From the NCBI RefSeq assembly GCF_029961155.1, contig NZ_JASBRH010000027.1:1-54142 (forward strand): a DNA stretch of 54,142 nt, written 5' to 3'. Of this stretch, positions 7,416-49,314 are shown one piece after another. Source of the stretch: Pontibacterium granulatum. GTDB taxonomy: Bacteria > Pseudomonadota > Gammaproteobacteria > Pseudomonadales > Balneatricaceae. The stretch's first letter is position 1, and each line of letters begins with the position of its first letter. The notes under the pieces are model-generated. The model searched no databases. It was not told where the DNA came from and was given only the letters and a program-made list of their open reading frames with translations. Position numbers and translations under genes: made by a program.

Positions 7416-8720
7416 ATGCTGTCAGTTATCGCTCTGATATTGTTAATTATTACGCTTGTTATCGGTGTACCCGTACCTTTTGCATTTCTGGCTTCTACAA
7501 CCTTTCTCATCTTTTCAGCAGACTACGACCCTAGCTTCCTTCTTCCATTTGGTTTCAGCCGAATGAGCAACCCTGTCCTGCTTGCAATTCCGTTGTTTAT
7601 TATTGCCGGGGGCATAATTAACAGGGGGCACATAGGCGACAAGTTGGTAGAGTTAGTCGACCTCTTTGTTGGAAGAATGAAAGGTGGGCTTGGGGTAGTA
7701 ACAGTACTTTCCTGTGCAGTATTTGGCTCAATTACTGGTAGTGCAGCGGCTACTCTTTCAGGTATCGGAGCAATTATGTTCCCAAAACTGAAGAAAGCAG
7801 GCTATCCCCAGGGACACTCCGCAGCTCTCATTGCAAATGCGTCGGTACTAGGACTGCTTATTCCACCAAGTGCGATAATGATTCTCTATGCGTGGATTGG
7901 CAACCAATCAGTCCTTGCAGCATTTCTCGCCACAGTAATCCCTGGGTTGATCCTTACAGTCTTACTCTGTTTAGTGAATGTGGTTCTTGTCCGCAAAAAC
8001 AAAGATCTGGTACTGGAAGACCCTATAGATCTAAATACGTTTCAGAAGCTACTGGTTAAGCGCAGTGTTAAAGCGGTTCCAGCATTAGCTATGCCCTTTC
8101 TGATTCTAGGCGGGATCTACGGAGGAATAGTAACTCCTACTGAAGCTGCAGCCTTAGGAGTACTCTATGCTATTCCTGTGGGTTTCTTTATCTACAAAGG
8201 CTTGAACGGTAAAAGCTTCCTCCAGGCTATTCTTGAAGCTGCTGTTACCACTGGTGTTATTATGGTCATGCTCTACACCGTAATGATTTTGAGCCGGTTG
8301 TATATCATGGAAGACCTGCCTGGAACCATCATGGAAATCCTAACATCAATAACAGAAAACCCATTGCTAATCCTGTTAATGATCAACCTTTTCATGATTA
8401 TTATCGGTATGCTAATGGACGATGCAAGTGCGGTATTGCTAGCAACCCCAATACTTCTCCCTCTAGCAATTGAACTAGGCGTTAGCCCAATTCAGTTTGC
8501 TGCGATCGTAGGTGTCAATCTAGGCATGGGCAACATCACCCCCCCCACAGCTCCTCTCTTATATCTAGGAGGGCAATTAGGAGGAGCCAAAATTAACCAG
8601 ATGATGAACCCGACACTTTGTATGATCGCTTTTGCCTGGCTACCAACTCTTCTCGCTGTAACTTACATTCCTCAACTTTCGCTATGGCTTCCCCAGCTGG
8701 TGCTTGGAATACAAGGTTAA
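7416..8720 (+). CDS. TRAP transporter large permease (DctM-like)
   Basis: 434 residues, about 11-12 membrane helices. DctM marks: LLAIPLFIIAGGIINRG, VLSCAVFGSITGSAAATLSG, ANASVLGLLIPPSAIMILYA, GIVTPTEAAALGVLYA and GMLMDDASAVLLATPILLPL. It is the sodium-coupled transport subunit paired with the DctQ-like and DctP-like proteins. Strong ribosome site AAGGAG. Last gene of the purU operon; a terminator follows. Confidence 0.96.
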   Translation: MLSVIALILLIITLVIGVPVPFAFLASTTFLIFSADYDPSFLLPFGFSRMSNPVLLAIPLFIIAGGIINRGHIGDKLVELVDLFVGRMKGGLGVVTVLSCAVFGSITGSAAATLSGIGAIMFPKLKKAGYPQGHSAALIANASVLGLLIPPSAIMILYAWIGNQSVLAAFLATVIPGLILTVLLCLVNVVLVRKNKDLVLEDPIDLNTFQKLLVKRSVKAVPALAMPFLILGGIYGGIVTPTEAAALGVLYAIPVGFFIYKGLNGKSFLQAILEAAVTTGVIMVMLYTVMILSRLYIMEDLPGTIMEILTSITENPLLILLMINLFMIIIGMLMDDASAVLLATPILLPLAIELGVSPIQFAAIVGVNLGMGNITPPTAPLLYLGGQLGGAKINQMMNPTLCMIAFAWLPTLLAVTYIPQLSLWLPQLVLGIQG

Positions 8721-8741
8721 ACTATCCGTTCGTCACCCTTT

Positions 8742-8766
8742 AAGCCTGCTATGCAGGCTTTTTTAC
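8742..8766 (+). terminator. Rho-independent terminator of the purU-folD-TRAP operon
   Basis: Stem AAGCCTGC / GCAGGCTT with loop TAT, running into TTTTTT, 21 bp after the large permease stop. Confidence 0.9.
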
Positions 8767-8930
8767 TCTTATGTGCTAGTCGACATATTGTCATTGAAGT
8801 TACAAACTTCGATTAACTAGGTTTGTGTTTTCAAATTATTTCTGCATGCCGGCTATTTTCAGAAGCATAGTTCGCATGATGAATCTGAAAAATGCCATAT
8901 CTACTTTACAGTGAAGGAAATAAAACTCTG

Positions 8931-9818
8931 ATGTTACGTATTTGTGCACTTGTACCAAAAATTTTCCGAGCGGGAATGTTCGTCCTTTCAGCGATGGCCT
9001 TCTCTCATGCCGCTCAAGCCGAAGAATCATTTGAGAAGAAGATTGCAGCTATCGAAAACAAGCTCGACGGTCGGATCGGGTTAGTGATGCTCAATCTCAA
9101 TAATGGTGAAAAATTGGCATATAACGCCCATGATCGTTTCCCTATCTCCAGTACGTTCAAGATTGTGCTCTGCGGAGCCATCCTGGCAAAGGTGGATGCA
9201 GGCGATGAGAGCCTAGATCGACACATTACGTTTGAAAAATCAGAGATCGTCAACTGGTCACCGATTACGGAGAATCTATTTCAAACCGGCATGTCAGTCG
9301 GAGAGCTGTGCAACGCAACCATGACAATGAGTGATAACACAGCGGCGAACTTACTTTTAGCAACAATCGGCGGGCCACAAGGATTGACCATGTTCCTACG
9401 CGGAATTGGAGATGACACAACTCGGCTTGACCGATGGGAAACCAAACTAAATGAGGGTGCTCCCGGCGATCTCCGGGATACAACGACTCCAGCTGCCGCG
9501 TTGAGGACTCTCAAAGAACTGCTTTTCGGCAAAGCTCTTTCAGTACCTTCACGTAGACAACTCACAAAATGGATGATCGACGACAAAGTCGCAGACGATT
9601 TACTCCGTGCATCCTTACCTGAAGGCTGGGAAATCGGCGATAAATCAGGCGCAGGCGGATACGGCTCGCGTTCGATCGTCGCTGTCATTTGGCCACCGGA
9701 GAAAGGCCCTATCTTGGTAACCGTTTATCTAACAGAGAACGGTGCGGATTTTCCAACACGGAATCAGGTGATTGCGGAGATCGGTGCGGTCATTGTCGAA
9801 AAGATCCAAAGCCAATAG
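8931..9818 (+). CDS. Class A serine beta-lactamase
   Basis: Periplasmic beta-lactam hydrolase, 295 residues from ATG 8931 (GAAGGA 12 nt upstream). An ATG at 8892 has no ribosome site and would spoil the signal peptide, which ends near AAQA (residue 30). All active-site elements are visible with constant offset to Ambler numbering: STFK (Ser74), SDN (134-136), Glu170 in RWETKLNEG, and KSG (238-240). Cys81 and Cys127 fit the class A disulfide. The segment GDKSGAGGYGSRSIVAVIW resembles the carbenicillinase branch, but those usually have Arg where this has Lys238. I do not recognise a named allele; probably a resident environmental enzyme. No ampR-like gene, IS or integron element is next to it. 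It has its own space after the TRAP terminator and is followed by decayed DNA. Confidence 0.95.
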   Translation: MLRICALVPKIFRAGMFVLSAMAFSHAAQAEESFEKKIAAIENKLDGRIGLVMLNLNNGEKLAYNAHDRFPISSTFKIVLCGAILAKVDAGDESLDRHITFEKSEIVNWSPITENLFQTGMSVGELCNATMTMSDNTAANLLLATIGGPQGLTMFLRGIGDDTTRLDRWETKLNEGAPGDLRDTTTPAAALRTLKELLFGKALSVPSRRQLTKWMIDDKVADDLLRASLPEGWEIGDKSGAGGYGSRSIVAVIWPPEKGPILVTVYLTENGADFPTRNQVIAEIGAVIVEKIQSQ

Positions 9819-11352: not shown

Positions 11353-11440
11353 ACGGCTCGCAATAACCCTCAAAGTGTTCTATCAGCCAGTCGACCACCG
11401 CCCACGCCGGTTCAGCCGCGGGCGGGTTGGCGGACAGATC
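11345..11440 (-). pseudogene. Orphan C-terminal coding fragment (LysR-like tail)
   Basis: Reading leftward from 11440 there is an open frame of 31 codons ending in TAA at 11345: it includes SANPPAAEPAWAVVDWLIEH and ends GYCEPFR. It has protein-like codon use and resembles the tail of LysR regulators. It has no start, begins inside the nahK stop codon in another frame, and overlaps the last 8 bp of the convergent lysR gene. Best read as the scar of a truncated gene; chance cannot be excluded. Confidence 0.4.
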
Positions 11441-14039
11441 AGAAGGCCCCCGTCTCCAGCGGGCATTCTAGCATGTGGCTCAGGGTAGTCTTGAGCTTGA
11501 GCGGTTTCACTGGCTTGTTCATCAGCATGTAGCCCAGCTCCCGGATCTCCGCCTTCAGCTCCTTGCAGTAGTTGGCGGTGATCATCAGCACGGGGACATC
11601 GTCTGTCAGCATACTGCGGATCTCCTCGGCAGCATCCACGCCGTTTTCACCGTTGTCGAGGTGATAATCCACAATCAGCAGATCCACGGGTGTATTGGCC
11701 GGATCAAGCTTGGCGGTCAGGTCATCCACCGACAGGGCTGTGACCACGTCACAACCCCAGCCACTCAGCAGCGTATCCATGCCCTGACAGATAGTCAGAT
11801 CGTTATCGATTACCCAGATACGGGTACGCTGCAGGCGGTCCAGGCGCTGCGGAATATTGGGACCGTGCATCTCGCCCTGGCTTGGCGCCTTGGTGCCATA
11901 TGGCACTTCCACGGAGAACACCGATCCGACACCCTGCTCAGACTCCACATAGATTGGGTGGGCCAGTACACGCGAGATCTTATCCACGATGGCCAGCCCC
12001 AGGCCCAGCCCTTTGTCCTGCCCGCTGTGTTTGTTCTCCAACCGCTTGAACTCCTGGAAGATCTCCTGCTTTTTCGCTGCCGGTATACCGGCGCCGGTAT
12101 CCCACACCTGAATCAGCAGACCGTGCTCCCGACGGCGGCATCCCAGCAGGATGCGCCCGGTTTCCGTGTACCGGATCGCATTGGAGAGGAAGTTACGCAG
12201 GATACGCGCCAGCAGCTGGGAATCGGAGTTGATGGTCACGTCACAAGATACAAAACGCAGCTCCAGCCCTTCGCTCTGGGCCACCTGGCGATACTCGTTG
12301 GCGATGTTCTGTAACAGGTCGCTGACGTTAAAGGAGATCACATCCGGCACCACCGCGCCCGCATCCAACTTGGAGATATCCACCAGCGTGCTGAGCAGGG
12401 ACTCCACATCCTCCAGCGAATTGGAGACCGACAGTACCAACGCATTTGTCTTGGCTTCCATCGGTTGCTCGATCAGGGCACTGGTAAACAAACGTGCTGC
12501 ATTCAGTGGCTGCAGCAGATCGTGGCTGACTGCCGCGAGGAATTTGGTTTTGGAGATGTTGGCGCGTTCCGCCTCCTGACTGGCTTCGCGTAGGCGTGAT
12601 TCGATCAGGGAGCGCTCGTTGATCTCCAGACGCAGCTGCTGGTTCACATGGGTCAACTCGGAGGTACGTTCGATCACGCGCTGCTCCATCATCTGGTAGG
12701 CCTGCTTCAGCTCCTCGCCGGTACGGATACGCTCGGTGATATCTCGGATCATTACGAAACAACCGAGCGCCTGACCGTCGGCATCCAGGTTGGGCACGTA
12801 AGACTTCAACAAAATGCGCTCTTCACCCGCAAGATTTGGCTCGCTCATCTCAAAGGTGACACACTCGCCTGCCATCGCCCGGTCAAAATAGGGCTTGAGG
12901 ATCTTCATCTGGGCGGCGTCGTGGACCTTGGTGATCGGCTCGCCGTTGAGGGCGCCACGCGGCCAGCCGTACCACTCGTCGTACACCTTGTTGGTGAACT
13001 GATAACACTCATCCTGCCCCACATAACAGATCAGCGCAGGCACATTGTCGGTGATCAGGCGAATCCACTGCTCACTTTCGCGCAGGGTCTCCGCATACTG
13101 GTGACGTTCGGTGATATCGGTATAGGTGTTTACAAAACCACCGGTGGGCATTGGGTGGGTGCGCACCTCGATTACCCGGCCGTTGTGCTCACGCTGGTCC
13201 GATGCCACCACTTCCCCCTGCTGCGCGGCCGACAGTGCGTGCTGCAGAATATGTTTGTGGGAAACGGTCAGTGACGCCCAAGGAGAGTGCTCTGCAGCCG
13301 CGGACGGATCCACACCGGTCAGCTCCAGGAAGCGGTCGTTCCACACCTCCAGGCGGCCCTCGTGGTCCACCAGCGCCACGCCTTGTGACAGGTTATCCAC
13401 GGTAGCCTGCAACAGCTTACTTTTCTGCTCCAGCGCCCGTTCGCGGATCGCAGTTTCCCGCGCTTTCAATCCAGTGATATCGGTATACAGCACCACCAAG
13501 CCATCGTCCTGAGTCGGGCGCTGGCTCATCTGGAACCATTTACCGTTGCAGAGACGGAAGATCTTGTTACCACTTTCGCCATCATCGTGGGCTTCGGCGA
13601 TCAGCCCCGATTCGTGACCCAGATTCCAGATATCCTGAATGGTGATACCCGCCTGAATCTCGACGTTTACGTCGTACCAGATGGTGCGGAATTTGTTGTT
13701 GTAGAGCACCACCCGACGTTCGGCATCAAACAATACAAAGGCATCGGAGATACTGTTGATCGCATCGATAAGGCGCTGATGGGCAGTAGCCGCCTGCTCG
13801 TTGGCTTGGTGCAACTTGCGGTTGGAGGCTTTCAGATCGGCGAGGGCCGCGTTTAGCAACTCGGTCCGTTCCCGCACCTGTTCGGCCAGCACGACCGAAT
13901 GCTCAAACGCCGCGTACGGGTTTGCCACCTGGGAGCTACCAGACTCCACCCGCTCGATCAGCACCTCGTTGATGCGTTTCAGCTTGGCGTTTTCCTGCTC
14001 CAGCTCAGCGAGTCGCTGGCGCATCTCTGCTTCATTCAC
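11439..14039 (-). CDS. nahK: Hybrid histidine kinase, NahK/ErcS'-like
   Basis: Cytoplasmic multi-PAS hybrid kinase, partner of the FIST protein encoded just upstream. Order: N-terminal coiled coil (LAELEQENAKLKRINEVLIE), three PAS domains (about 90-200, 220-320, 330-450), coiled coil, HisKA with SHDLLQPLNAARL (His506), HATPase with NFLSNAIRY, WDTGAGIP and GLGLGLAIV, and a C-terminal receiver with LLIVDYHLD (Asp791) and MNKPVKP. In Pseudomonas aeruginosa the pair PA1975-PA1976 is NosP-NahK, where NO bound to NosP inhibits NahK and thereby affects biofilm dispersal through HptB. Start GTG 14039 overlaps the nosP stop by 8 bp; ATG 14024 is the alternative. Last gene of the ercA-ercS-nosP-nahK operon. 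Confidence 0.9.
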   Translation of the reverse strand: MNEAEMRQRLAELEQENAKLKRINEVLIERVESGSSQVANPYAAFEHSVVLAEQVRERTELLNAALADLKASNRKLHQANEQAATAHQRLIDAINSISDAFVLFDAERRVVLYNNKFRTIWYDVNVEIQAGITIQDIWNLGHESGLIAEAHDDGESGNKIFRLCNGKWFQMSQRPTQDDGLVVLYTDITGLKARETAIRERALEQKSKLLQATVDNLSQGVALVDHEGRLEVWNDRFLELTGVDPSAAAEHSPWASLTVSHKHILQHALSAAQQGEVVASDQREHNGRVIEVRTHPMPTGGFVNTYTDITERHQYAETLRESEQWIRLITDNVPALICYVGQDECYQFTNKVYDEWYGWPRGALNGEPITKVHDAAQMKILKPYFDRAMAGECVTFEMSEPNLAGEERILLKSYVPNLDADGQALGCFVMIRDITERIRTGEELKQAYQMMEQRVIERTSELTHVNQQLRLEINERSLIESRLREASQEAERANISKTKFLAAVSHDLLQPLNAARLFTSALIEQPMEAKTNALVLSVSNSLEDVESLLSTLVDISKLDAGAVVPDVISFNVSDLLQNIANEYRQVAQSEGLELRFVSCDVTINSDSQLLARILRNFLSNAIRYTETGRILLGCRRREHGLLIQVWDTGAGIPAAKKQEIFQEFKRLENKHSGQDKGLGLGLAIVDKISRVLAHPIYVESEQGVGSVFSVEVPYGTKAPSQGEMHGPNIPQRLDRLQRTRIWVIDNDLTICQGMDTLLSGWGCDVVTALSVDDLTAKLDPANTPVDLLIVDYHLDNGENGVDAAEEIRSMLTDDVPVLMITANYCKELKAEIRELGYMLMNKPVKPLKLKTTLSHMLECPLETGAF

Positions 14040-15195
14040 CCGCACACCCGCCTTCCGGGCATGGGCCGATCGCCACCCCGGTAAATGTCTGGTTGATATG
14101 CATGCCTGCCGTCTGCTCACCGTAGGTGTTGAAACCGATCACACGGTTTTCCCGCAGGATCTCAGAAACCTCATCGCAGATCCCCAGCAGTTCGATCTCA
14201 AGCCGGCGCAGGAAACAGTCACAGCCGATCACCAGTTGCGGTTCACCCACCTCTTCACGGATATCCGCCAGTTGCTGCTGCAGATTCGGGATGATCGGGC
14301 CGGGTTCCATCACCGTCAGCACGATGCCGTTCTCCACGGCGCAGTAGAAGGTCAGGCTCAGATCGTCGTTCACCTGCTGGATAGAGCGCACGAAGTACTC
14401 ATCCCCCAGCTTCACCGCAATTGGCTTCAGTGCAAAGACTTCATGGTTCAGTTCGGACAACTCCACCCCCACCGCACGGGCATACTCCACGGCTGCGGGC
14501 TCGGCATTGAGTTCCAGCACACGCCGCGCCTCAGGATCAGCGGCCGTCACCACCAGCTTTTCGCTGCAATTGCGCATGTGATGGGTACTGAATACTTCAA
14601 AGCGGCAGGCGGTGTTAAACAGCAACACCACGGCAGATTCGGAATGGAATTGGCCGTCAAAAAACACGTGCGTGTTGGTGAGGTGAACATCGTCCCCAGC
14701 CGAGCCGCCAAAAGTAGGGATACTGCCGAGGGCGGCATTAAGGGACGCCAGGACCATCTCTTCCTGGATCGACAAGCCATCGAACAGGGTCAGCGCAAAG
14801 CTGTTACCCTTAATCGGCGCGATCTCCTTGGCGCGGCATGCGCTGATCAACCGATCCACCATCGATTGTGCATCGGTCAGACTGAAGCTGTGCAGCTCGT
14901 TCACGCCCACCGCAGCCACGGCAAAATGCCCCCGGCGGAAACCGATAGCGGTAATACAGCCCTGACCGTACCCCTGTGGGGTAATCTCGCCGGCGGTGGT
15001 ACAGCCCACCAGCGGAATATCTTCAAACTGCTGATTGAGCGCACCCGCAAGCCGGGGCAGGTCGTATTCTGCGGAGCAGAAGAACAGCACCAGATCCAAG
15101 GCGTCGCCCGACAATTGCTGGCGCAGTTCAGCTGCGGCCTGCTCGGGAGAGCGGCTGAAAGATGCTACACAAAGGACAGATTCAGAATATTCCAC
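14032..15195 (-). CDS. nosP: FIST-domain sensor protein, NosP-like
   Basis: 387 residues, no membrane segment or signal peptide. FIST_N part (about 20-215) with LVGCTTAGEITPQGYGQG, ITAIGFRRGHFAVAAVGV, TFGGSAGDD and VVLLFNTACRFEVFSTHH. FIST_C part (about 225-365) with VFALKPIAVKLGDEYFVRS, VIGCDCFLRRLE and VIGFNTYGEQTAGMHINQT. NosP proteins bind heme and sense nitric oxide, controlling the kinase encoded with them. The translationally coupled hybrid kinase makes that role likely here. Start GTG 15195 with GGGTGG upstream. It belongs in the same operon as ercA/ercS and lies only about 6 kb from nosRZDFYL. Confidence 0.88.
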   Translation of the reverse strand: MEYSESVLCVASFSRSPEQAAAELRQQLSGDALDLVLFFCSAEYDLPRLAGALNQQFEDIPLVGCTTAGEITPQGYGQGCITAIGFRRGHFAVAAVGVNELHSFSLTDAQSMVDRLISACRAKEIAPIKGNSFALTLFDGLSIQEEMVLASLNAALGSIPTFGGSAGDDVHLTNTHVFFDGQFHSESAVVLLFNTACRFEVFSTHHMRNCSEKLVVTAADPEARRVLELNAEPAAVEYARAVGVELSELNHEVFALKPIAVKLGDEYFVRSIQQVNDDLSLTFYCAVENGIVLTVMEPGPIIPNLQQQLADIREEVGEPQLVIGCDCFLRRLEIELLGICDEVSEILRENRVIGFNTYGEQTAGMHINQTFTGVAIGPCPEGGCAGE

Positions 15196-15305
15196 CAGAG
15201 ACCACCCGGATTTTGCCTGTATGTTTCCATTCTAGGGGGCTGTTTTGAAGAGCTGAATACTACTTACGACCCCAATCCCATGATGTGCGACAGCTAAGGC
15301 ACGGC

Positions 15306-17033
15306 CTAACTCTGTAGCAGATGGGTTAACAACGAGCGTAACTTGCCGGGTTTCACCGGTTTGTTCAGTACCGGCAAGCCATGGTCACGGAACAGCTGGC
15401 GGCATTCGTCGCTGCGATCGGCGGTGATCACCATCGCCGGAATGTTCAGGCCCAAAGTTTCCCGAATACTCAGAATCGCATCAGTGCCCGTCTGGTCTTC
15501 ATCCAGATGGTAGTCTGCAACGATAACGTCGGGTACCCAACTCAACCGTTCAATCACTTCCAGCGCCTCATGTTCATCCGCCGCCGTTTCCACTTCACAC
15601 CCCCACTGTCCCAACAGCGCAGCCATGCTGACCAGGATGTTCTCTTCATTGTCGATCACCAGTACACGAGACTGAACGATCTGATCGGTTGGGACGGTGT
15701 ACTGCGGCATCACACGCGGCTCTGCGGTATTGGATTGCGCCAGTGGCACCTCGATGGAGAACATGGAGCCAACACCCACTTGGGAGATGACGTGGATTGG
15801 ATGGTCAAGTACACGAGCGATGCGGTCTACAATCGCCAGGCCCAGCCCCACGCCGGTGCGCTTACGCTTTTTGCGCTCCAGTTGCTGGAACTCTTTGAAC
15901 ACATCCTGGATACGGTCTTGCGGAATACCAAGGCCGGTATCCCACACCTGGATACGTACACTGTGCGGTCCACGACGGCACCCCACCAGCACACGGCCGT
16001 CATTGGTATAACGGATCGCATTGGAGAGGAAGTTGCGCAGAATACGGATCAACAGGCGCGAATCGGTGGTCACGTTCAAGCTGGAGGGTACACAACGCAA
16101 TTCCAGATCGGCATCCTGCGCCACCGCCTGAAACTCGGTAATCAGCGGATCCAGTAACGTCTTGACGCTGTATTCCGCCGGATCGGGTTTCACCGCATTC
16201 TGATCCAATTTAGAGATATCCAGCAGGTCGGCCAGCAGCTCTTCGGCATTATCCAGCGCCATATGGACCCGCTCGACCAGATGTCCCTCTTCGCCTGCCA
16301 GTTCGCGCTCCCGCAAGGTAGATATCAACAAGCGGGCAGCGTTCATCGGTTGCAACAGGTCATGACTGGCCGCTGCCAGGTATTTGTCTTTGCTGACATT
16401 AGCCTGTTCGGCCACTTCTTTGGCGACCTTGAGTTCTTTCTGTGCCTGCTCACGCTCGGCGATCTCACGCCAAAGCTTATCGTTCAGGCCCACCAGTTCA
16501 CGGGTACGTTCCTCCACCCGTGCTTCCAGTTCTTCGTTCAGCTTCTTCAGATTGTCCTGCGCTTTTTTGCGTTCGGTAATATCCTGTACGAACGCCTCAA
16601 TCACCTGCTGCTGCCCCTCCTGCTTCAGCAGGACGTTGAGCGACACATCCACCGCCGAGCCGTCTTTGCGTTGCATGCGGGTTTCATAACCAAACACATG
16701 CCCGCAGGAATGCAAACAATCGGTGACAAAAGAAAAGTCCTGCGGTGACAGAAAAAGTTGCTGGTCGATGCGGGCGATGTGGGCAAGGATTTCGTCTGCA
16801 GAGTCGTAGCCACAGATTTTTGCAATGGCCGGGTTTGCGGCACGCAGTCCACCCGACATATCTGCCTGGAAGATCCCGTGCAGGGCATTTTCGAACAGCC
16901 ACATATAGCGGTTACGTTCCGCTTCAAGCTCTTCGATTTTGGTCACCAGTTCCGCGTAGTAACTTTTACGGGCGGATTGGTTACCTAAGCCGATCAGGTC
17001 ATCAACGGTGGCCTGATCAGAGCGCTTCTTCAT
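15306..17033 (-). CDS. ercS: PAS-domain hybrid histidine kinase, ErcS-like
   Basis: 575 residues from ATG 17033, which has an ideal GAGGTGG site and overlaps the ercA stop by 17 bp. Soluble. Layout: coiled coil, PAS (about 45-160, RYMWLFENALHGIFQADMSG to FVQDITERKKAQ), a long coiled-coil linker, HisKA with SHDLLQPMNAARL (His224), HATPase with NFLSNAIRY, WDTGLGIP and GVGLGLAIV, and a receiver with VIVADYHLDED (Asp507) and LNKPVKP. Pseudomonas ErcS belongs to the regulatory cascade for PQQ-dependent ethanol oxidation. The catalytic core is strikingly like that of nahK two genes downstream, so the two kinases look like paralogues. Confidence 0.88.
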   Translation of the reverse strand: MKKRSDQATVDDLIGLGNQSARKSYYAELVTKIEELEAERNRYMWLFENALHGIFQADMSGGLRAANPAIAKICGYDSADEILAHIARIDQQLFLSPQDFSFVTDCLHSCGHVFGYETRMQRKDGSAVDVSLNVLLKQEGQQQVIEAFVQDITERKKAQDNLKKLNEELEARVEERTRELVGLNDKLWREIAEREQAQKELKVAKEVAEQANVSKDKYLAAASHDLLQPMNAARLLISTLRERELAGEEGHLVERVHMALDNAEELLADLLDISKLDQNAVKPDPAEYSVKTLLDPLITEFQAVAQDADLELRCVPSSLNVTTDSRLLIRILRNFLSNAIRYTNDGRVLVGCRRGPHSVRIQVWDTGLGIPQDRIQDVFKEFQQLERKKRKRTGVGLGLAIVDRIARVLDHPIHVISQVGVGSMFSIEVPLAQSNTAEPRVMPQYTVPTDQIVQSRVLVIDNEENILVSMAALLGQWGCEVETAADEHEALEVIERLSWVPDVIVADYHLDEDQTGTDAILSIRETLGLNIPAMVITADRSDECRQLFRDHGLPVLNKPVKPGKLRSLLTHLLQS

Positions 17034-18177
17034 AGACCACCTCAACATCGCGCTGGCTAGACTTGCGCGGGTTGGTGAGTATGCATGGATCCTTGATCGC
17101 TTTTTCGGACAACACAGGGATATCGCTTATGCTCACCCCGTTTTCCGCCAGTTTCTGGCTCAGACCCACATCCCGTTTCAGCTCGATTACTGCGGCCATC
17201 AAACGCGCTTTGATCTCGGTCTGATTCAGCCCACGGGTGTCCAGCCCCATGGTTTCGGCAACCACCTTGAAGCGGTCTGCGGCATTGGAGTAGTTGTAGG
17301 CGATCACGTGCTCCAGCAGCATTGCGTTGCACAAACCATGCGGCAGGTCGAGCCACCCACCCAGACTGTGGGACATGGCATGCACGGCCCCCAGAATGGC
17401 ATTGGAGAACGCCAGACCCGCTTTCATCGACCCCAGCATCACCTGCTCACGCAGAGCCAGATTACTCGGATCGGCGACCAGCGGGCGCAGGTTGGTACTG
17501 ATCAGGCGGATCGCATCCAGCGCATGCATATCGGTCAGAGGACCTGCGCCGGTAGAAACAAACGCCTCAATCGCATGCACCATCGCATCCACGCCCGTAC
17601 AGGCGGTCAGGAACGGGTCCATGGTCATGGTCGTTTCCGGATCGATCAACGCAACGTCAGGCACCACGGCTTTGGACACAATGGAGATTTTCACCTTCTC
17701 CTGCTGGTCGGAAATGATCGCAAACTGGGACACATCGGCCGAGGTACCGGCGGTGGTTGGAATAAAGATCAGTGGGGGAATCGGTGCGTGAATGGTATCC
17801 ACACCTTCGTAGCTTAAAATGTCACCGCCGTTGGCAGAGATAATGCCGATCCCTTTTGCAGTATCCATCGGACTGCCGCCACCCACGGCCACGATTACGT
17901 TGCAGTCGTGTTCACGGTAGAAATGCGCACCTTTCATCACCTCTTCCGCACGCGGGTTGGGTGATACATCGGTAAAGGTCACATAGTCGATACCCTGTTC
18001 CTCCAATGATTGCTCAACGTCGCGCACCCACCCTGCGCGAGCAACCCCCGGATCAGATACGACCAGTACACGCCGGGCACCAAAGGTGCGAGCGTAGTTC
18101 GCGACCGTTTTGCGCGCGCCCTCACCAAAGATAATCTCAGGCGATACAAACTTGCGGAGACTGGAAATGTCACTCAT
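17017..18177 (-). CDS. ercA: Iron-containing alcohol dehydrogenase, ErcA-like
   Basis: 386-residue group III NAD-dependent alcohol dehydrogenase. Nucleotide site VAVGGGSPMDTAKGIGII, then FIPTTAGTSADVSQFAI, the conserved TGVDAMVHAIEAFVS and the metal region AMSHSLGGWLDLPHGLCNAML containing His ligands. In Pseudomonas, ercA is co-transcribed with ercS and is needed for ethanol growth in a regulatory rather than purely catabolic way. First gene of the four-gene operon. The ribosome site is weak. A GGTCTGTT/AACAGACC palindrome lies upstream. Confidence 0.93.
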   Translation of the reverse strand: MSDISSLRKFVSPEIIFGEGARKTVANYARTFGARRVLVVSDPGVARAGWVRDVEQSLEEQGIDYVTFTDVSPNPRAEEVMKGAHFYREHDCNVIVAVGGGSPMDTAKGIGIISANGGDILSYEGVDTIHAPIPPLIFIPTTAGTSADVSQFAIISDQQEKVKISIVSKAVVPDVALIDPETTMTMDPFLTACTGVDAMVHAIEAFVSTGAGPLTDMHALDAIRLISTNLRPLVADPSNLALREQVMLGSMKAGLAFSNAILGAVHAMSHSLGGWLDLPHGLCNAMLLEHVIAYNYSNAADRFKVVAETMGLDTRGLNQTEIKARLMAAVIELKRDVGLSQKLAENGVSISDIPVLSEKAIKDPCILTNPRKSSQRDVEVVYEEAL

Positions 18178-20774: not shown

Positions 20775-21299
20775 TTACTCTCCATGTCCCAGCGGTTGGT
20801 TCATGTCGATCAGCACCTGCAAAGTGACCTGATCAAAACGCAGTACCTTACCACCTTCCACCTTGGCAAAAGCTTCAGCATCCTCCTGATTTGAAAAGCT
20901 GGCCAACGTTGGGCCCATTGCACCTTTTTTACCGTGGCCTACCACGTAAAAGGCTTGCTTGGCGTCGATATAGGTTTCCTCATCGGGATGTTCCCAAGGG
21001 GTTACCGCCATATCATGCACAAAAGCTTGCTGGATGTTGTGCTGGTTCTCTGGATCAACGATAAAGGCAAACATATCCCGGGTTGAGCAGAACTTCATAC
21101 TGCCCACTTTGCCACGGGAATAGAGCTGACCCTTAGGGCCCGGGTAATTGGTGATGATCATACCGCACAGGTGGCACTCGTCACCGCTCTCGATAGCAAC
21201 AACCTGCTGTACCATCGCGATCTTGTCCTCTTCCTCTCCGCAGCCGGAGAGCATCGCCAACGTCAGCACTAGCATTAAGGCACGCATTAGCGTTTTCAT
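20775..21299 (-). CDS. nosL: NosL, copper chaperone lipoprotein for nitrous oxide reductase
   Basis: 174 residues with a lipoprotein signal ending LAMLSGCGEEE (lipobox Cys about 20). The copper-binding CHLCGMIITNYPGPKGQLY motif (Cys-x-x-Cys-Gly-Met) is intact, followed by KFCSTRDMFAF. NosL delivers Cu(I) in the periplasm for NosZ cofactor assembly with NosDFY. Strong site GGGGAGG. Last gene of nosRZDFYL, 14 bp after nosY. Confidence 0.97.
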   Translation of the reverse strand: MKTLMRALMLVLTLAMLSGCGEEEDKIAMVQQVVAIESGDECHLCGMIITNYPGPKGQLYSRGKVGSMKFCSTRDMFAFIVDPENQHNIQQAFVHDMAVTPWEHPDEETYIDAKQAFYVVGHGKKGAMGPTLASFSNQEDAEAFAKVEGGKVLRFDQVTLQVLIDMNQPLGHGE

Positions 21300-21313
21300 A
21301 CGGCCACCTCCCC

Positions 21314-22141
21314 TTAAAGTCCGCGGCGACTGAATATCAGCATCGCCAAACTAACGGGCAGCAACAGCCAGACCAGCAAGCCACCGAATAGTGAAAACGT
21401 TGAGAACTGCGTTTGCTGGGTAATCGCCATCAGTCCGCTCAGGTTCTGATCGGCAAAGTAGGTGATATTCACCAAACGGAAGATATCAGTTGGATTCAGC
21501 AGCAACAGGTAAGGGAACAGGGTTTCATCCACGTTTCCCTGAGTGGCCACCAGCATGCCCAGTAACCCCAAATCGAACACCAACACAAACAGGAACCAGA
21601 CGATCAGGGCGATCCCCGCCGCTTTGGACTTCTCGGAAACCGACGCACTGATCACGTAGGCGATGGCAATAAAGATCCAGCCCAGCAGCATAGCGGAGAA
21701 GATAAACACCATATAGGGGCCAATCAGTTCACCCCAACTGGTCGTCTCGGAGAAGATGCCCATCATCACCGCCGAAGAACCGAAGCCCACCAAGGTGGAG
21801 AATGCCATCACCGCGCCCTGCCCCATCATTTTGCCCAGCAGCAACTGCCAACGGGAGAGCGGATAGGTCATCAGCAACAGCAGCGTACCGTTTTCATCCT
21901 CGCCAACGATGCCGTCATAGGCCAGCATCAGCGCAATCAACGGAATAATAAACACCGCCAGACTCGCCAGGCTGACGATAGTGGAAGATAGTGAGGTAAA
22001 ACCTACCTTACCTGCTGCAGCCGCACCGAAATAGGCCAGACCTATCGCCAGCACCGCGAAGATAATACAGATCGACAACACCCAGCGGTTACGCAGACCG
22101 TCATGAAACTCTTTGTTTGCAACCGTAAATACAGCGCTCAT
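21314..22141 (-). CDS. nosY: NosY, ABC transporter permease for NosZ maturation
   Basis: 275 residues, six hydrophobic helices, beginning MSAVFTVANKEFHDGLRNRW. The loop YDGIVGEDENGTLLLLMTYP is characteristic. It forms the NosDFY complex that supports CuZ assembly. Overlaps the nosF stop by 4 bp. Confidence 0.96.
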   Translation of the reverse strand: MSAVFTVANKEFHDGLRNRWVLSICIIFAVLAIGLAYFGAAAAGKVGFTSLSSTIVSLASLAVFIIPLIALMLAYDGIVGEDENGTLLLLMTYPLSRWQLLLGKMMGQGAVMAFSTLVGFGSSAVMMGIFSETTSWGELIGPYMVFIFSAMLLGWIFIAIAYVISASVSEKSKAAGIALIVWFLFVLVFDLGLLGMLVATQGNVDETLFPYLLLLNPTDIFRLVNITYFADQNLSGLMAITQQTQFSTFSLFGGLLVWLLLPVSLAMLIFSRRGL

Positions 22142-23043
22142 GGGGTTGCCTCCTGCACCTGATGTGACTCGATAAAGTGGGTATAGAGGTCTTCCAGCGA
22201 CGGTAGATGGATATCGATGTTTTCCAGCCCCGGTAATGCAATCAGCTGCTGCATCGTGTCCATTTTATTCTTCAGAGAGACGTCCAGGCGGGTCGAGGTT
22301 CCCTCTGTACGGGCGTTCGCAGCGAGATGATCGGGCAACGTCAGATCACCCTGCAGATGGAAAGTGGCGGGCAGGTTCGCCTGCTGCCGCAGATCATTGA
22401 CGCTGCCTTCGGCCAACAGCTTACCGCGGCCCAGAATCAACGCACGATCGATATACTTTTCCACACCCGGCAGCACGTGGGAGCAGAGAATCACCGTACA
22501 CCCCTGTTCTTTTAGCTGCTCGATGCGGCGGTAAAAATCCTGAGTGGCAATGGGATCCAGCCCCACAGTGGGTTCATCCAGCAACAACAGCTTGGGTTCA
22601 CCCAACAACGCCTGCGCCAGCCCCAAACGCTGACGCATCCCCTTTGAGTAGGTTTTCACCCGGCGTCTACCGGCCTGACTTAAGCCCACCTGCTCCAGCA
22701 ACGCATGACAGCTCTGCTTGGAGATCCCTTTCAGACGGGCAAAATACTGCAGTACTTCCAGACCGGTAAGTTGATCGTAAAAGCTGACGTTTTCCTGCAG
22801 GAAACCCAACTGGCGGCGCAGGGTTCGGGCCTCGGACTGGGTGGGGTCTTCACCAAATACACGAACCTGACCGGCGGTGGCTGCAATCAGACCCAGAATC
22901 AGTTTGATGGTGGTGGTTTTCCCCGCCCCGTTATGACCGAACAGGCCCAGGACCTCCCCCTGCCGCAGCTCGAGATTAAGCTGATGCAGCGCACTCACCC
23001 CCTGATAGGATTTCTCAACCTGCTGTAATTCGACGATATTCAT
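22138..23043 (-). CDS. nosF: NosF, ABC transporter ATPase for NosZ maturation
   Basis: 301 residues. Walker A GHNGAGKTTT, Q-loop LGFLQEN, signature YSKGMRQRLGLAQ, Walker B LLLLDEPTVGLDP and the switch His in CSHVL are all intact. The C-terminal extension is typical of NosF. Begins 1 bp after the nosD stop and overlaps nosY by 4 bp. Confidence 0.97.
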   Translation of the reverse strand: MNIVELQQVEKSYQGVSALHQLNLELRQGEVLGLFGHNGAGKTTTIKLILGLIAATAGQVRVFGEDPTQSEARTLRRQLGFLQENVSFYDQLTGLEVLQYFARLKGISKQSCHALLEQVGLSQAGRRRVKTYSKGMRQRLGLAQALLGEPKLLLLDEPTVGLDPIATQDFYRRIEQLKEQGCTVILCSHVLPGVEKYIDRALILGRGKLLAEGSVNDLRQQANLPATFHLQGDLTLPDHLAANARTEGTSTRLDVSLKNKMDTMQQLIALPGLENIDIHLPSLEDLYTHFIESHQVQEATP

Positions 23044-23044
23044 A

Positions 23045-24385: not shown

Positions 24386-24410
24386 ACAAGCCTCCTGATC
24401 GGAGAAAAAG

Positions 24411-24451
24411 CCCAGCCCTGAGATATAACCTGGGAACAGATCAGGGCTGGG
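24411..24451 (-). terminator. Attenuator-like hairpin between nosZ and nosD
   Basis: Perfect 11-bp stem CCCAGCCCTGA / TCAGGGCTGGG with a 19-nt loop. In the transcription direction (minus) the stem is followed by CTTTTTC, giving an intrinsic-terminator form only 25 bp before the nosD start. Likely leaky, as nosDFYL must still be expressed. Confidence 0.75.
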
Positions 24452-24460
24452 TGTGACACG

Positions 24461-24487
24461 CTCATTTGCTGATTAGCAGCAAATGAG
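24461..24487 (-). promoter_or_regulatory. Second hairpin after nosZ
   Basis: Perfect 11-bp stem CTCATTTGCTG / CAGCAAATGAG, loop of 5, 22 bp after the nosZ stop. No T tract; may protect the 3' end of the nosZ message. Confidence 0.6.
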
Positions 24488-24508
24488 TGAGTGCATTGTT
24501 GCCAGGCC

Positions 24509-26419: not shown

Positions 26420-26490
26420 CGTTTCGATCTCCATTGGATATAACGCCGTACCACATAGCAGGCGTTGCTTGGGTCATTTGTTGCAGGCGC

Positions 26491-28656: not shown

Positions 28657-28724
28657 TTGGGTACCTTTTAAGCCACGTTTTACAAACACTCGGCTTGATA
28701 AACGCGCTACTTCATGCAAACAAA

Positions 28725-45565: not shown

Positions 45566-46738
45566 TCACTCAAACTCTGAGGAACTGAAAAACACCCGTG
45601 AATTGCGCTCGTTCCGGTACAGCATCTTGGAGCTATCCAGCGGTTGCTCAGCCTCAGCCCGCGCGTCAGTGATCAGGTGGTGGTGTTCCGACTTGCTGCA
45701 CACCGGATCCGCATTGGTGGCATCGCCAGTCATCATGTAGGCCTGGCAGCGACAACCGCCGAAGTCTTTCTCCTTATCATCACAGGAGCGGCACGGCTCC
45801 TTCATCCACTCGTAACCCCGGAAATGGTTGAAACCAAAGCTCTCGTTCCAGATATGGTCGAGGGAGTTGTCACGTACATTGGGAAATTCGATCGGCAGCA
45901 TCTTGGCGCTGTGACACGGCAATGCCGTGCCGTCCGGCGTCACGGTCAGGAATACCTGGCCCCAGCCGTTCATGCAACCTTTGGGACGCTCTTCATAGTA
46001 GTCCGGCGTGACAAAGATCAGTTTGATCGGATTACCTTCCGCAGCCAGCTTTTCGCGGTACTCGTTGGTGATCCGTTCCGCCCGTTCCAGCTGAGCACGA
46101 GTCGGCAGCAGGTTCTCCCGGTTCTCGTATGCCCAGCCATAGTACTGGCAGGTGGCCAGCTCGACGTAGTCTGCCTCCAGCTCAATACAGAGTTCGATGA
46201 TGCGATCAATCTGATCGATGTTATGACGGTGGGTCACGAAGTTGAGCACCATCGGGTAACCCTGTGCTTTCACTTCCCGCGCCATCTTCAGCTTCTGATT
46301 GAACGCTTTCTGCGAGCCCGCCAGCATGTTGTTCACACTCTCATCCGCTGCCTGGAAGCTGACCTGGATGTGGTCCAGCCCCGCATCACGAAACTCGGCA
46401 ACTTTACGCTCGTTCAAGCCTACACCGGAGGTGATCAGGTTGGTGTAGTAACCCAGGCGCCTCGCTTCACTGATCAGCGTAACCAAGTCCTGACGTACCA
46501 ACGGTTCACCACCGGAAAAGCCGAGTTGCACCGCCCCCAGCTTACGCCCCTCTTCGAACACCTTGATCCACTCTTCGGTGGTCAATTCAGTGTTACGGTT
46601 GGCAAAATCCAGCGGGTTGGCACAGTACGGGCACTGCAACGGGCATTTGTAGGTCAGCTCGGCAAGCAGCCACAGTGGCTGGCCGTGGGTTGGAACAGAG
46701 TTCAGAGAAGGAGAGCCGTTGCAGGATGAGGAGGACAT
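45566..46738 (-). CDS. pqqE: PQQ biosynthesis radical SAM enzyme PqqE
   Basis: 390 residues. Radical SAM cluster Cys32-x3-Cys36-x2-Cys39 in [27 protein letters not shown]-type auxiliary-cluster cysteines in [35 protein letters not shown] and PVCSKS. Forms the Glu-Tyr carbon-carbon bond in PqqA, with PqqD as chaperone. Strong site CGAGG. Separated from pqqD by 115 bp holding a 46-bp repeat, where many genomes have tight coupling. Confidence 0.98.
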
Positions 46739-46817
46739 GGGATACCTCGTATTCTTCTTATAGTTATGTACGTAATTGCACTGTGGGTCGCAATTTAGGG
46801 GCGAACCTACTCACTGT

Positions 46818-46863
46818 TGTAGGGCAGCCTTCAGGCTGCCGGTAGCCTGAAGGCTACCCTACA
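46818..46863. repeat. 46-bp double-hairpin repeat, copy C (overlaps pqqD 3' end)
   Basis: TGTAGG ends around GGCAGCC-TTCA-GGCTGCC and GGTAGCC-TGAA-GGCTACC. Its right end supplies the last two codons (Val-Gly) and TAG stop of pqqD. Confidence 0.88.
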
Positions 46864-47141
46864 TTGGATCTACTGATCTCAATCCAGCGTTGCTTATGAG
46901 CTTCCGCCAGAAACTCCAGCACATCGCTTTCTAAACCATCCACGTCACCGAACTTGCCCTTAAGATCAGCAACAATCCCTGCCACCGGTTTCTCGCCGTC
47001 TACCAGCGCCAGGATCTCGCCGGCCGGGCCGTTCAGCTGGATCATGCCTTCCGGGTAGAGCAGTACATAACTGTTCTGTGCCTGCTCCCACTGGAAGCGA
47101 AACATGGTGTTCAGGGTTGGGATTGATTCGTTGCTAATCAT
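46854..47141 (-). CDS. pqqD: PQQ biosynthesis peptide chaperone PqqD
   Basis: 95 residues. RiPP recognition element fold: [58 protein letters not shown]. Binds PqqA and presents it to PqqE. Overlaps the pqqC stop by 4 bp. The final NVG-stop is contributed mainly by the repeat at 46818-46863, so the original stop was probably replaced. Confidence 0.96.
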
Positions 47142-47908
47142 CGGAACAACCCTGTGTGGTATACCTTCTCACCCGTCACTGTGTGGTACGGCGCGCGGTC
47201 CAGTTCGTACGCCATGGTCATCGCATCTAGCATCGACCAGAGCACGTCCAGCTTGAACTGCAGGATCTCCAGCATGCGCTCTTGCTGTTCGCGGGTTTTG
47301 TAGTGATCCAGAGTGATCTCCAGGCCGTGCACCACGTCGCGACGCGCTTCGGTCAGGCGGTTGCGGAAGTACTGGTAGCCGTTTGCGTCGATCCACGGGT
47401 AGTGATCCGGCCAGGTATCCAGGCGGGACTGGTGGATCTTTGGAGCAAACAACTCGGTCAGGGAGGAGCTCGCAGCTTCTTCCCAGGTCGCACGACGGGC
47501 GAAGTTCACATAAGCATCCACGGCAAAACGTACACCCGGCAACACATGTTCCTGGGAGATGATCTCTTCGCGAGTCAGGCCCACAGCTTCACCCAGGCGC
47601 AGCCAGGCTTCGATGCCACCTTCCGCCTCATCGTAACCGTCGTGGTCGAGGATACGCTGCACCCACTGACGGCGGGTATCACGATCCGGGCAGTTGGCCA
47701 TGATCGCCGCATCTTTCATCGGGATCATGATCTGATAGTAGTAGCGGTTGGCAACCCACCCCTGAATCTGTTCTTTGGTGCAGCTGCCGTTGTACATCGC
47801 CACGTGGTAGGGGTGATGGATATGGTAGAGATCGCCCTTGGCACGCAGAGCCTGTTCGAACTCTTCGCGGGACATCGGCAGTTTGTTTTCGGTTACCTGT
47901 GTGTTCAT
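47138..47908 (-). CDS. pqqC: Pyrroloquinoline-quinone synthase PqqC
   Basis: 256 residues from ATG 47908 (AGGAG at ideal spacing). Cofactor-free oxidase performing the last ring closure and oxidation of PQQ. Family blocks: [76 protein letters not shown] and [12 protein letters not shown]. 31 bp after pqqB. Confidence 0.97.
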
Positions 47909-47939
47909 ATGCACGCTCCTGTTTTTTATCAGGACCCGA

Positions 47940-48860
47940 TCAGAGTTCAATACTCATGCCGTCGTAGGAGATGTCTATGCCGTGGGCCAGTACTTCGGCG
48001 CGCTCCGGCGACTCCTCATCCAGGATCGGGTTGGTGTTGTTGATATGGATAAGTACCTTGCGTGGTTTTTCCAGCGTATCCAGGTACTCGATCATCCCAC
48101 CCTGCCCGGACTGGGGCAGATGGCCCATGGCGGTACCGAGCTTGTCGCCGACACCGGAAACAATCAACTCGTCTTCACGCCAGATGGTGCCGTCGACCAT
48201 TACACAGTCGGCGCTTTCCATCACAGGACGCAGGTGGGGTTCGATCTGGCCGAGGCCAGGTGCATAGAACAGGGTTTTACCGGTCCGGGTATCTTCGATT
48301 TTGATACCGATATTGTCACCCGGATGGGGATCGTTACGGTGCGGCGAGTATGGCGGCGCACTGCTGAGCAGGGGCACGGCGGTCAGCTTCAACTCCGGCA
48401 CCTGCGGAATCGTAAACGGCTTGGCGCCCTCTTCGATTGGAATGCGGTTCCAGTTGATACCGCCGTTCCAGTGCTCAAGCATGTTGAAGATCGGGAAACC
48501 AGAGGTGAGATCCTGATGCACCATATCGGTACACCACACCTCGTGCGGACAGCCTTCGCGCAGCATCAACAGACCGGTGGTATGGTCGATCTGGCTGTCC
48601 ATAAAGACAATGGCCGAGATACCGGTATCACGGATCGCACGCGCCGGCTGCATCGGTCCGAAGCTGTCCAGTTGGGCACGGATATCCGGCGAGGTATTAA
48701 ACAGGATCCAGTGTTCGCCATCGGCACTGACAGCAATAGAGGATTGGGTACGTGGCTGGGCTTTAATAGTGCCTTCGCGCACGCCCCGACAGTTACGGCA
48801 GTTGCAGTTCCACTGAGGAAAGCCACCGCCAGCGGCTGAGCCTAAAACGTGTATTTTCAT
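47940..48860 (-). CDS. pqqB: PQQ biosynthesis protein PqqB
   Basis: 306 residues, metallo-beta-lactamase-like fold. Start [20 protein letters not shown] with the CNCRNC zinc-binding cysteines; [48 protein letters not shown]. Proposed to hydroxylate the Tyr part of the PqqA-derived intermediate. Confidence 0.97.
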
Positions 48861-49003: not shown

Positions 49004-49075
49004 TTAGCGGTTTGCGAAGTACATGGTTACTTCGAAGCCGATGCGCATGTCTTTGTATTCTGGTTTAGTCCACAT
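49004..49075 (-). CDS. pqqA: PQQ precursor peptide PqqA (23 aa)
   Basis: ATG 49075 to TAA 49004. The peptide begins [15 protein letters not shown] and ends VTMYFANR. It has the invariant Glu15 and Tyr19 (E-V-T-M-Y) whose carbon atoms become PQQ. Ribosome site AGAGGG 9 nt before the start. Too short for ordinary gene callers. 143 bp upstream of pqqB. The space 49076-49314 upstream holds its promoter region and no gene. Confidence 0.97.
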
Positions 49076-49314
49076 AACGTAATACCCTCTGGTTGTTATT
49101 GCTTTGAATAGGAGTTACCAGATTGATAATAGAAATGGGGCCGTGGAACCCATATGGTACTTTGGAACGAAAAAGGTCCTGAATTAGACCAGTAGTAGTA
49201 CGTTAGATAGATGGGAAAACTTCAGGATCCACGCAGTTACGATTGCAAATAACAGCGATTCAGCAGGAGTTGAAAGTAGTTAAAGCGTGGGAAAAGTGAC
49301 TGCAAACAATCTTG

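Follow-up and report, generated by a model that had tools for sequence, protein, structure and literature searches.

The 54,142-nucleotide contig of Pontibacterium granulatum analyzed here (NZ_JASBRH010000027.1; hereafter the window) carries four contiguous genes, ercA-ercS-nosP-nahK, that encode two sensor protein–hybrid kinase pairs. The most plausible reading of this fused block is a pair of adjoining transcription units, of which the second would have its own, probably ErbR-type, promoter, with read-through from the first being possible. We put the probability at roughly 60% that the block is a compact locus of two homologous sensor-kinase modules in which nosP-nahK keeps its own promoter and is made, via the regulator ErbR (AgmR/PedR1), within the program for alcohol oxidation and pyrroloquinoline quinone (PQQ). 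In lineages that bear ErcA, the nitric oxide (NO)-sensing pair has a putative promoter of its own both where it is joined to ercA-ercS and where it is not; this corrects a simple one-operon reading. New here are the lineage-wide four-gene cluster and a box that nosP and pqqA have in common; for Pseudomonas, the functional link is already in print to a large extent.

The four-gene cluster and a putative promoter inside it

The open reading frame (ORF) map places all four genes on the minus strand between 11439 and 18177. We tested families with Pfam and NCBIfam models and chose the start codons of ercS and nahK among the in-frame starts.

17017..18177, minus strand: ercA, iron-containing alcohol dehydrogenase-like regulatory protein (NCBIfam NF041833, 615 bits, cut-off 550)
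15306..17033, minus strand: ercS, one-PAS hybrid histidine kinase (PAS, HisKA, HATPase and receiver domains; NF041832, 454 bits, cut-off 400)
15229..15265, minus strand: putative nosP promoter (AAGTAGTAT box at 15265-15257, 22-nt spacer, TAGAAT at 15234-15229)
14032..15195, minus strand: nosP, FIST-domain NO-sensing protein (FIST and FIST_C; NF041558, 589 bits, cut-off 450)
11439..14039, minus strand: nahK (ercS', pedS1), hybrid histidine kinase with PAS domains (NF041832, 561 bits, cut-off 400)

ErcA and NosP both pass equivalog cut-offs, and the ercA gene overlaps the adjoining hybrid kinase gene. Both kinases exceed the cut-off of the C-terminal model of the NahK/ErcS family (NF041832), and the nahK product stays below that of the narrow NahK/ErcS' exception model NF041831 (1217 versus 1500 bits). 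The longest ercS frame (17048-15306, 580 aa) overlaps ercA by 32 nt, and the in-frame ATG at 17033 reduces this overlap to 17 nt. A gap of 110 bp separates ercS from nosP. The longest nahK frame runs from 14120 to 11439, and a GTG at 14039 yields 866 aa and an 8-nt overlap with nosP. These junctions agree with an earlier note on this DNA, which had described the four genes as joined by overlaps or short gaps. ErcA residues D197, H201, H266 and H280, which we take to be the metal-ligand positions of iron-containing alcohol dehydrogenases (Fe-ADHs), are conserved in at least 98% of 71 rows, a set in which some genes appear twice, and NosP residues H205, H206 and H366 in at least 98% of 126 rows. 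The Fe-ADH positions and the phospho-acceptors H229 (ErcS) and H533 (NahK) are conserved at the set thresholds (98% and 97% of rows).

To compare loci, we searched the contigs of relatives with NosP and kept the best 80 of 502 relatives. The ercS-nosP gap varies from 58 to 421 bp among fused loci, which have in common the block AAGTAGTAT followed about 22 nt on by a -10-like hexamer. The exact core precedes nosP in 14 of the 15 four-gene loci (L044 lacks it), and the nosP genes of Pseudomonas, Stutzerimonas, Marinobacter and Amphritea are preceded by the slightly changed cores AAGTAGCAT, AAGTCGCAT and AAGTATACT. With relaxed patterns, which were set once the sequences had been inspected, the element is recovered in 95 of 96 nosP upstream regions, and with a matrix in 94 of 96; the strict core AAGTAG[TA]AT is present in 19 of 110. 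The 96 exclude 14 regions (L188, L198-L200, L005 and L161-L169) that belong to short-kinase or more distant nosP genes or are second copies of one place. A separate survey of genomes of the taxonomic order, described below, found the nosP box in all 15 ErcA genomes examined (of 18) versus 2 of 12 genomes without ErcA, kinship being uncorrected (G485 and G533 have it; G365, G369, G438, G494, G519, G520, G548, G561, G567 and G581 do not). Judged from these sequences, the element is most likely the nosP promoter of ErcA-bearing lineages, kept inside the fused cluster.

With a box-hexamer spacing of 12–18 nt, rather than the roughly 22 nt seen in the loci, the genome had two pattern matches, none in the window, versus six for a reversed control, and this spacing was rejected. 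A scan for the sigma-70 consensus gave 2 sites versus 3.6 expected, none of them before nosP or ercA on the minus strand.

The motif AANAAYAA, presumably the CA motif of catabolite-repression type, occurs no more than 100 nt from the ercA start in 23 of 33 loci, compared with 0.8 expected from shuffled sequences, and before nosP in only 3 of 110. Control of the cluster's two promoters thus seems to differ. The window's ercA leader has only a near match. Such a CA-rich leader suggests that ercA-ercS may be subject to catabolite repression.

The earlier note had proposed a single operon. In its strict form, one transcript from the ercA promoter would give all four proteins in a fixed ratio, and the element before nosP would be a functionless leftover. 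The overlapping frames, the 110-bp gap and the lack of a minus-strand terminator-like site within that gap all fit this idea. So does, weakly, a locus of Neptuniibacter sp. CAU 1671 (L041) that looks as if nosP had come under an ercA promoter: its nosP-nahK lies directly beside a divergent porin gene, the box is absent and a CA-rich, ercA-like leader precedes nosP, the longest shared word being 13 nt. The L041 genome has no ErcA at E ≤ 1e-150. However, a functionless leftover should decay, and the element is kept in 14 of the 15 four-gene loci despite the wide range of gap lengths. We therefore consider a strict single operon unlikely; the contiguity that the earlier note described stands, and its single transcription unit is not supported, given the conserved promoter-like element before nosP.

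A box shared with pqqA

The window holds just two copies of the composite of box, spacer and hexamer, one upstream of nosP and the other upstream of pqqA. Simulated sequences (300, first-order Markov) had a mean of 0.04 composites each and none had two, the pattern having been fixed after looking.

49126..49162, minus strand: same composite before pqqA (AAGTACCAT box at 49162-49154, 22-nt spacer, TATTAT at 49131-49126)
49004..49075, minus strand: pqqA, PQQ precursor peptide (translated frame starting at 49075)
45566..48860, minus strand: pqqB (48860-47940), pqqC (47950-47138) and pqqE (46738-45566), over the cut-offs of TIGR02108, TIGR02111 and TIGR02109
43599..45497, minus strand: prolyl-oligopeptidase-family (S9) gene after pqqE (PF00326)

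In three relatives (L037, L042 and L043) these genes directly precede the cluster, in the order pqqB-C-E-S9-ercA-ercS-nosP-nahK, and a fourth (L040) has the same order with a divergent porin gene between.

We then built a 16-position matrix from 39 nosP promoters and counted matches of at least 11 bits within 420 bp upstream of labeled genes; the 129 sequences scanned were the window plus 128 loci, several loci sometimes coming from one genome. Among the counts are artefacts of ORF starts (pqqB in L040, exaC in L196, distances over 10 kb), some genomes recur (e.g., L037 and L246), and the control set includes some unlabeled ped-region genes. Matches preceded nosP in 89 of 94 cases, a count that is not independent of the matrix, and pqqB, whose upstream region holds the pqqA promoter, in 18 of 23, one of these (L040) being an ORF-start artefact; the remaining five pqqB regions have weaker forms of the AAAGTACCAT site. 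Two further ped-region genes were often preceded by the box: one for a small exported protein (7/10) and one for an NMT1/SsuA-like binding protein (12/12). Other ORFs had it in 11 of 1198 cases. Within the sensor and PQQ clusters, matches were rare or absent before ercA (2/45), ercS (1/47), nahK (0/89), pqqC (0/23) and pqqE (0/25), and the two ercA matches (L261 and L266) lie 285 bp upstream and have pqqA-type letters. The same was true of a rhodanese-like gene (1/55) and of porin (0/65), pedR2-like (0/4), acs (0/1) and crbS-like (0/1) genes.

One gene for the small exported protein, at L246:1962-2399, is preceded at 84 nt by a very strong box (22.4 bits). Its product is weakly cupredoxin-like; we rejected cytochrome c as its identity because it has no CXXCH motif and only that weak match.

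A nosP-pqqA box of this kind was not described in the literature searched, which did not extend to subscription papers. Together with the linkage of the sensor pairs, a conserved box common to nosP and pqqA gives a concrete, testable reason to treat both as one network.

The fused order marks one lineage, and ErcA tracks NosP beyond it

The four genes are contiguous and on one strand in 12 of the 80 NosP loci, all of them Oceanospirillaceae-type: Pontibacterium, Marinobacterium, Neptuniibacter, Neptunomonas and one Amphritea metagenome-assembled genome (MAG) (L033, L035, L037-L040, L042-L044, L046, L048 and L049). Genomes G541 and G467 are also fused. Such conservation excludes chance contiguity, and the four-gene order is a trait of one lineage. 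A porin gene lies between ercS and nosP in G582; on the short contigs L036 and L047 ercS adjoins nosP, and L034 is too short to tell. The remaining 60 loci have no ErcA in the available flank, some flanks ending at contig ends.

The modules are separate in Pseudomonas and Marinobacter. In the survey of 244 genomes of the taxonomic order, ErcA exceeded its cut-off in 18 and NosP in 38, and all 18 were among the 38 (Fisher p = 4e-17, kinship uncorrected). ErcA and NosP share a contig in 14 of the 18, in every case on the same strand and within 104 kb; four of these have only ercS between them (in G582, ercS and the porin gene), and ten have the two genes about 18–103 kb apart. Among 49 genomes examined for a set of 50 of the 80 loci, ErcA was over the cut-off in 43; those without it are L034, L041, L047, L050, L055 and L057, three of which are MAGs.

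For a subset of 14 split genomes we worked out the arrangement by hand (L052-L054, L056, L060, L062-L066, L085, L094, L100 and L105). Each has ercA downstream of nosP on the same strand, about 19–24 kb away except for one case at 102 kb, so moving ercA in front of nosP needs a rearrangement. Deletion of the intervening ped/pqq block thus gives no simple account of the fusion, and we set it aside. Genomes G402, G602, G458, G534 and G555 have ercA upstream of nosP.

Five P. gingeri-type loci (L055, L057, L078, L089 and L107) have a different Fe-ADH gene divergent from nosP, its product about 44–45% identical to the window's ErcA; it lies at locus positions 8590-9738. The two of these five genomes that were searched, L055 and L057, have no ErcA at E ≤ 1e-150, and the P. 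gingeri-type Fe-ADH is a possible replacement for ErcA.

Additional NosP or FIST genes occur in two genomes. G467, which also has the fused cluster, carries another NosP on contig C8 (L188:6164-8735); it is accompanied by a short NahK-like kinase of 458 aa and lacks the box. The window's genome has a second FIST gene on contig C1 (L183:5583-6833), and about 1.7 kb further on comes a gene with a match (38%) to the window's methyl-accepting chemotaxis protein.

ErbR as the candidate regulator

A close erbR homologue lies convergent to nahK, within 3 kb, in 66 of 75 loci. The window's genome carries erbR on contig C28, with 89% identity to a Neptuniibacter protein and about 15 kb from a PQQ alcohol dehydrogenase gene. 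Published work, represented here and below by excerpts of the papers cited, points the same way. In P. aeruginosa, the ErbR-2 iModulon extends from PA1975 (nosP) to PA1990 and ends before ercA (PA1991) (PMC9023270; gene numbers for nosP and ercA from PMC12997753), and PedR1/AgmR controls ped and pqq genes, including the pqq operon (PMC12997753). Earlier studies are cited in PMC13390443 for activation of pedS1 (nahK) by PedR1; the same source has pedS1 induced by a diol and dispensable for ped induction, and P. putida PedS1 (NahK) not needed for activation of PedR1 by one diol. In the excerpts of PMC9927353, ErdR targets included acsA and not the ercS or agmR promoters, and those of PMC7427536 and PMC10134825 held nothing decisive on the regulator. 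Taken together with published findings on ErbR/PedR1, the shared box makes membership of nosP-nahK in the alcohol/PQQ regulon of ErbR (AgmR) most likely, and we infer that the box binds ErbR and drives transcription.

Drawing on the gene order, families, conservation and promoter-like elements observed above, and taking the direction of signaling from the Pseudomonas literature, we suggest the following mechanism. Two homologous modules, each of a small sensor protein and a hybrid kinase, would be stacked in one locus. ErcA-ErcS would report alcohol oxidation and act upstream of the LuxR-type regulator ErbR, and NosP-NahK would report NO. Given a nosP promoter with the same box as pqqA, the most likely logic would run from alcohol through ErcA/ErcS to ErbR, which would act on the pqq and ped genes along with nosP-nahK. 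Transcription that starts on the ercA side may run on into nosP-nahK, which would retain its old promoter in the ercS-nosP gap. The NO sensor kinase would then be made as part of the alcohol/PQQ program, and NO could restrain the kinase or its output.

Several observations weigh against this assignment. None of the 14 more distant or second nosP regions has the box (best scores -6.2 to 4.3 bits), so the box is not a general feature of nosP, and boxed nosP genes also occur without ErcA (L156, L158, L055 and L057). The terminator-free gap leaves read-through from ercA possible. Besides the dependence of the nosP counts on the matrix, related genomes are not independent trials. Among the 18 pqqA box matches, L040 included, only 8 have a -10 at the expected spacing. 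Finally, the box is mostly absent before exaA (1/20), exaC (1/26, an artefact), pedA1 (0/60), pedA2 (1/63) and erbR (1/81), and therefore either ErbR uses other kinds of sites as well or the box belongs to another regulator.

The order might also reflect shared ancestry without functional meaning, ErcA-ErcS to ErbR and NosP-NahK to HptB/Rsm remaining separate circuits. In P. aeruginosa NahK hands phosphate to HptB (PMC11784011), deletion of pedS1 had no effect on ped genes on 1,3-butanediol (PMC13390443), and the modules are split in Pseudomonas and Marinobacter, as such neutral clustering would have it. On the other side stand the invariable company of ErcA with NosP (18/18) and their same-strand proximity (14/14), the box common to nosP and pqqA, and an ErbR-2 iModulon that starts at nosP (PMC9023270). 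We regard neutral clustering as improbable.

The earlier note had joined NO sensing and the alcohol/PQQ branch in one circuit. Its proposal gains partial support from a probable shared regulator, through the nosP-pqqA box, the ErbR/PedR1 literature and the ErcA-NosP linkage; the fusion as such and the proximity of the nos genes lend it nothing. Work on NahK/PedS1 itself is divided between a literature on NO and biofilm and another on alcohol oxidation, and in the literature searched only a 2026 review (PMC12997753, excerpts) covers both.

Two old paralogous kinases

Across the 15 four-gene loci, ErcS and NahK are on average 56% identical in HisKA and in the ATPase domain; identity falls to 35% in the receiver and to 20% over the first 150 residues, in keeping with the earlier impression that they are paralogues. 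In a kinase-domain tree of 77 rows, the 38 NahK rows form one clade (100/98) and the ErcS rows fall outside it; the window's ErcS groups with ercA-adjacent kinases of Pseudomonas and Marinobacter, and its NahK falls in the clade of NosP-adjacent Pseudomonas kinases. Because of this topology we read the two as old paralogues, each grouping with its Pseudomonas namesake. L041 and all NahK rows of fused loci make up a single clade (97/93). The ErcS part of the tree is less orderly: rows from split Amphritea loci and from one Marinobacterium (L209) fall among the fused rows, L187 is long and unplaced, resolution of the deep forks is weak and some rows have long branches. In a quick tree of NosP plus NahK (35 rows), the fused/split label changes once among 33 labeled rows, with the fused rows on one side of a branch; its root is unknown and L187 is again long.

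The window's genome encodes a third kinase of the NahK/ErcS family on contig C11 (L182:5298-12534, 1369 aa, NF041832 at 485 bits). It adjoins genes for a LuxR-type regulator (46% identical to ErbR) and acetyl-CoA synthetase, is CrbS-ErdR-like by position and is sister of NahK on the tree, and no symporter domain was reported in it at E ≤ 1e-10. The kinase-domain tree has one row of this genome besides ErcS and NahK, L171, as sister of the NahK clade (99/99), on a long branch.

Integration could also occur at the protein level: in ErcS-NahK heterodimers, a single mixed kinase would respond to alcohol via ErcA and to NO via NosP, and contiguity would match the amounts of the two kinases. PedS1-PP_2683 heterodimers are already proposed from recent data, and effects of pedS1 deletion depend on the substrate (PMC12997753). 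The HisKA and ATPase domains are the parts most alike, with input and receiver parts diverged, as pairing would have it; but catalytic domains of paralogues are commonly the most conserved, so these identities do not test pairing. Heterodimers thus seem to us a doubtful explanation, though less so than a strict single operon, and they are compatible with an ErbR-dependent internal promoter, as both can hold together.

More speculative, and in our view unlikely, is a switch with two inputs that governs respiratory choice: ErcA and NosP would act on two paralogous, pairing kinases, ErbR would drive the genes of PQQ alcohol oxidation as well as the NO sensor that holds them back, and the Oceanospirillaceae gene order would fix the stoichiometry of mixed kinases. 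If true, NO sensing would be a built-in brake on alcohol oxidation in Pseudomonas, Marinobacter and their marine relatives, acting via one shared DNA box.

nos genes and other features of the window

20775-28719: nosRZDFYL cluster, between TauE and permease genes

The earlier note had also placed nos and pqq genes within 35 kb of the cluster, and they are there, at 20.8–28.7 kb and 45.6–49.1 kb. We rejected this proximity as evidence for a circuit. Locus L035 has the window's two-component, permease, TauE and porin flanks with no nos genes between permease and TauE, L033 has nos genes there, and among the 80 loci only L033 and L105 have any (matches over 40% identity, flanks up to 10 kb). The nearby nos genes are thus not a conserved part of the circuit, and the difference between the window and L035 is an insertion or a loss of nosRZDFYL. 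For nirS, a domain search of the window's genome gave a sole Cytochrom_D1 match, the beta-propeller gene of the ped region. At 8892-9818 the window carries a class A beta-lactamase gene (NF033103, 326 bits, cut-off 200), the best model for which, the CARB/PSE/RTG family, scores 348 bits, under its cut-off of 430.

Comparison with known systems

The second half of the cluster corresponds to nosP-nahK of P. aeruginosa (PA1975-PA1976) and P. putida (PP_2663-PP_2664 pedS1), with orthologous proteins, an overlapping gene pair and the same kind of promoter box. Related loci mostly add the nearby convergent erbR; in contrast, the window's pair directly follows ercS, and erbR lies on another contig. 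The first half corresponds to ercA-ercS (PA1991-PA1992; yiaY-PP_2683), again with orthologous proteins and an overlapping pair, which adjoins pqq genes in several relatives. It differs in position, as the window's copy is directly upstream of nosP and that of the 14 split genomes is downstream at a distance. As in the exa network of P. aeruginosa and the ped network of P. putida, the window's genome has ErbR, a PQQ alcohol dehydrogenase and pqq genes; next to its acetyl-CoA synthetase gene it also encodes a kinase of the family together with a LuxR-type regulator, a CrbS/ErdR-like pair judging by position. Unlike in those networks, the parts are spread over contigs C11, C19 and C28 in the present assembly, and both sensor pairs are gathered in one block.

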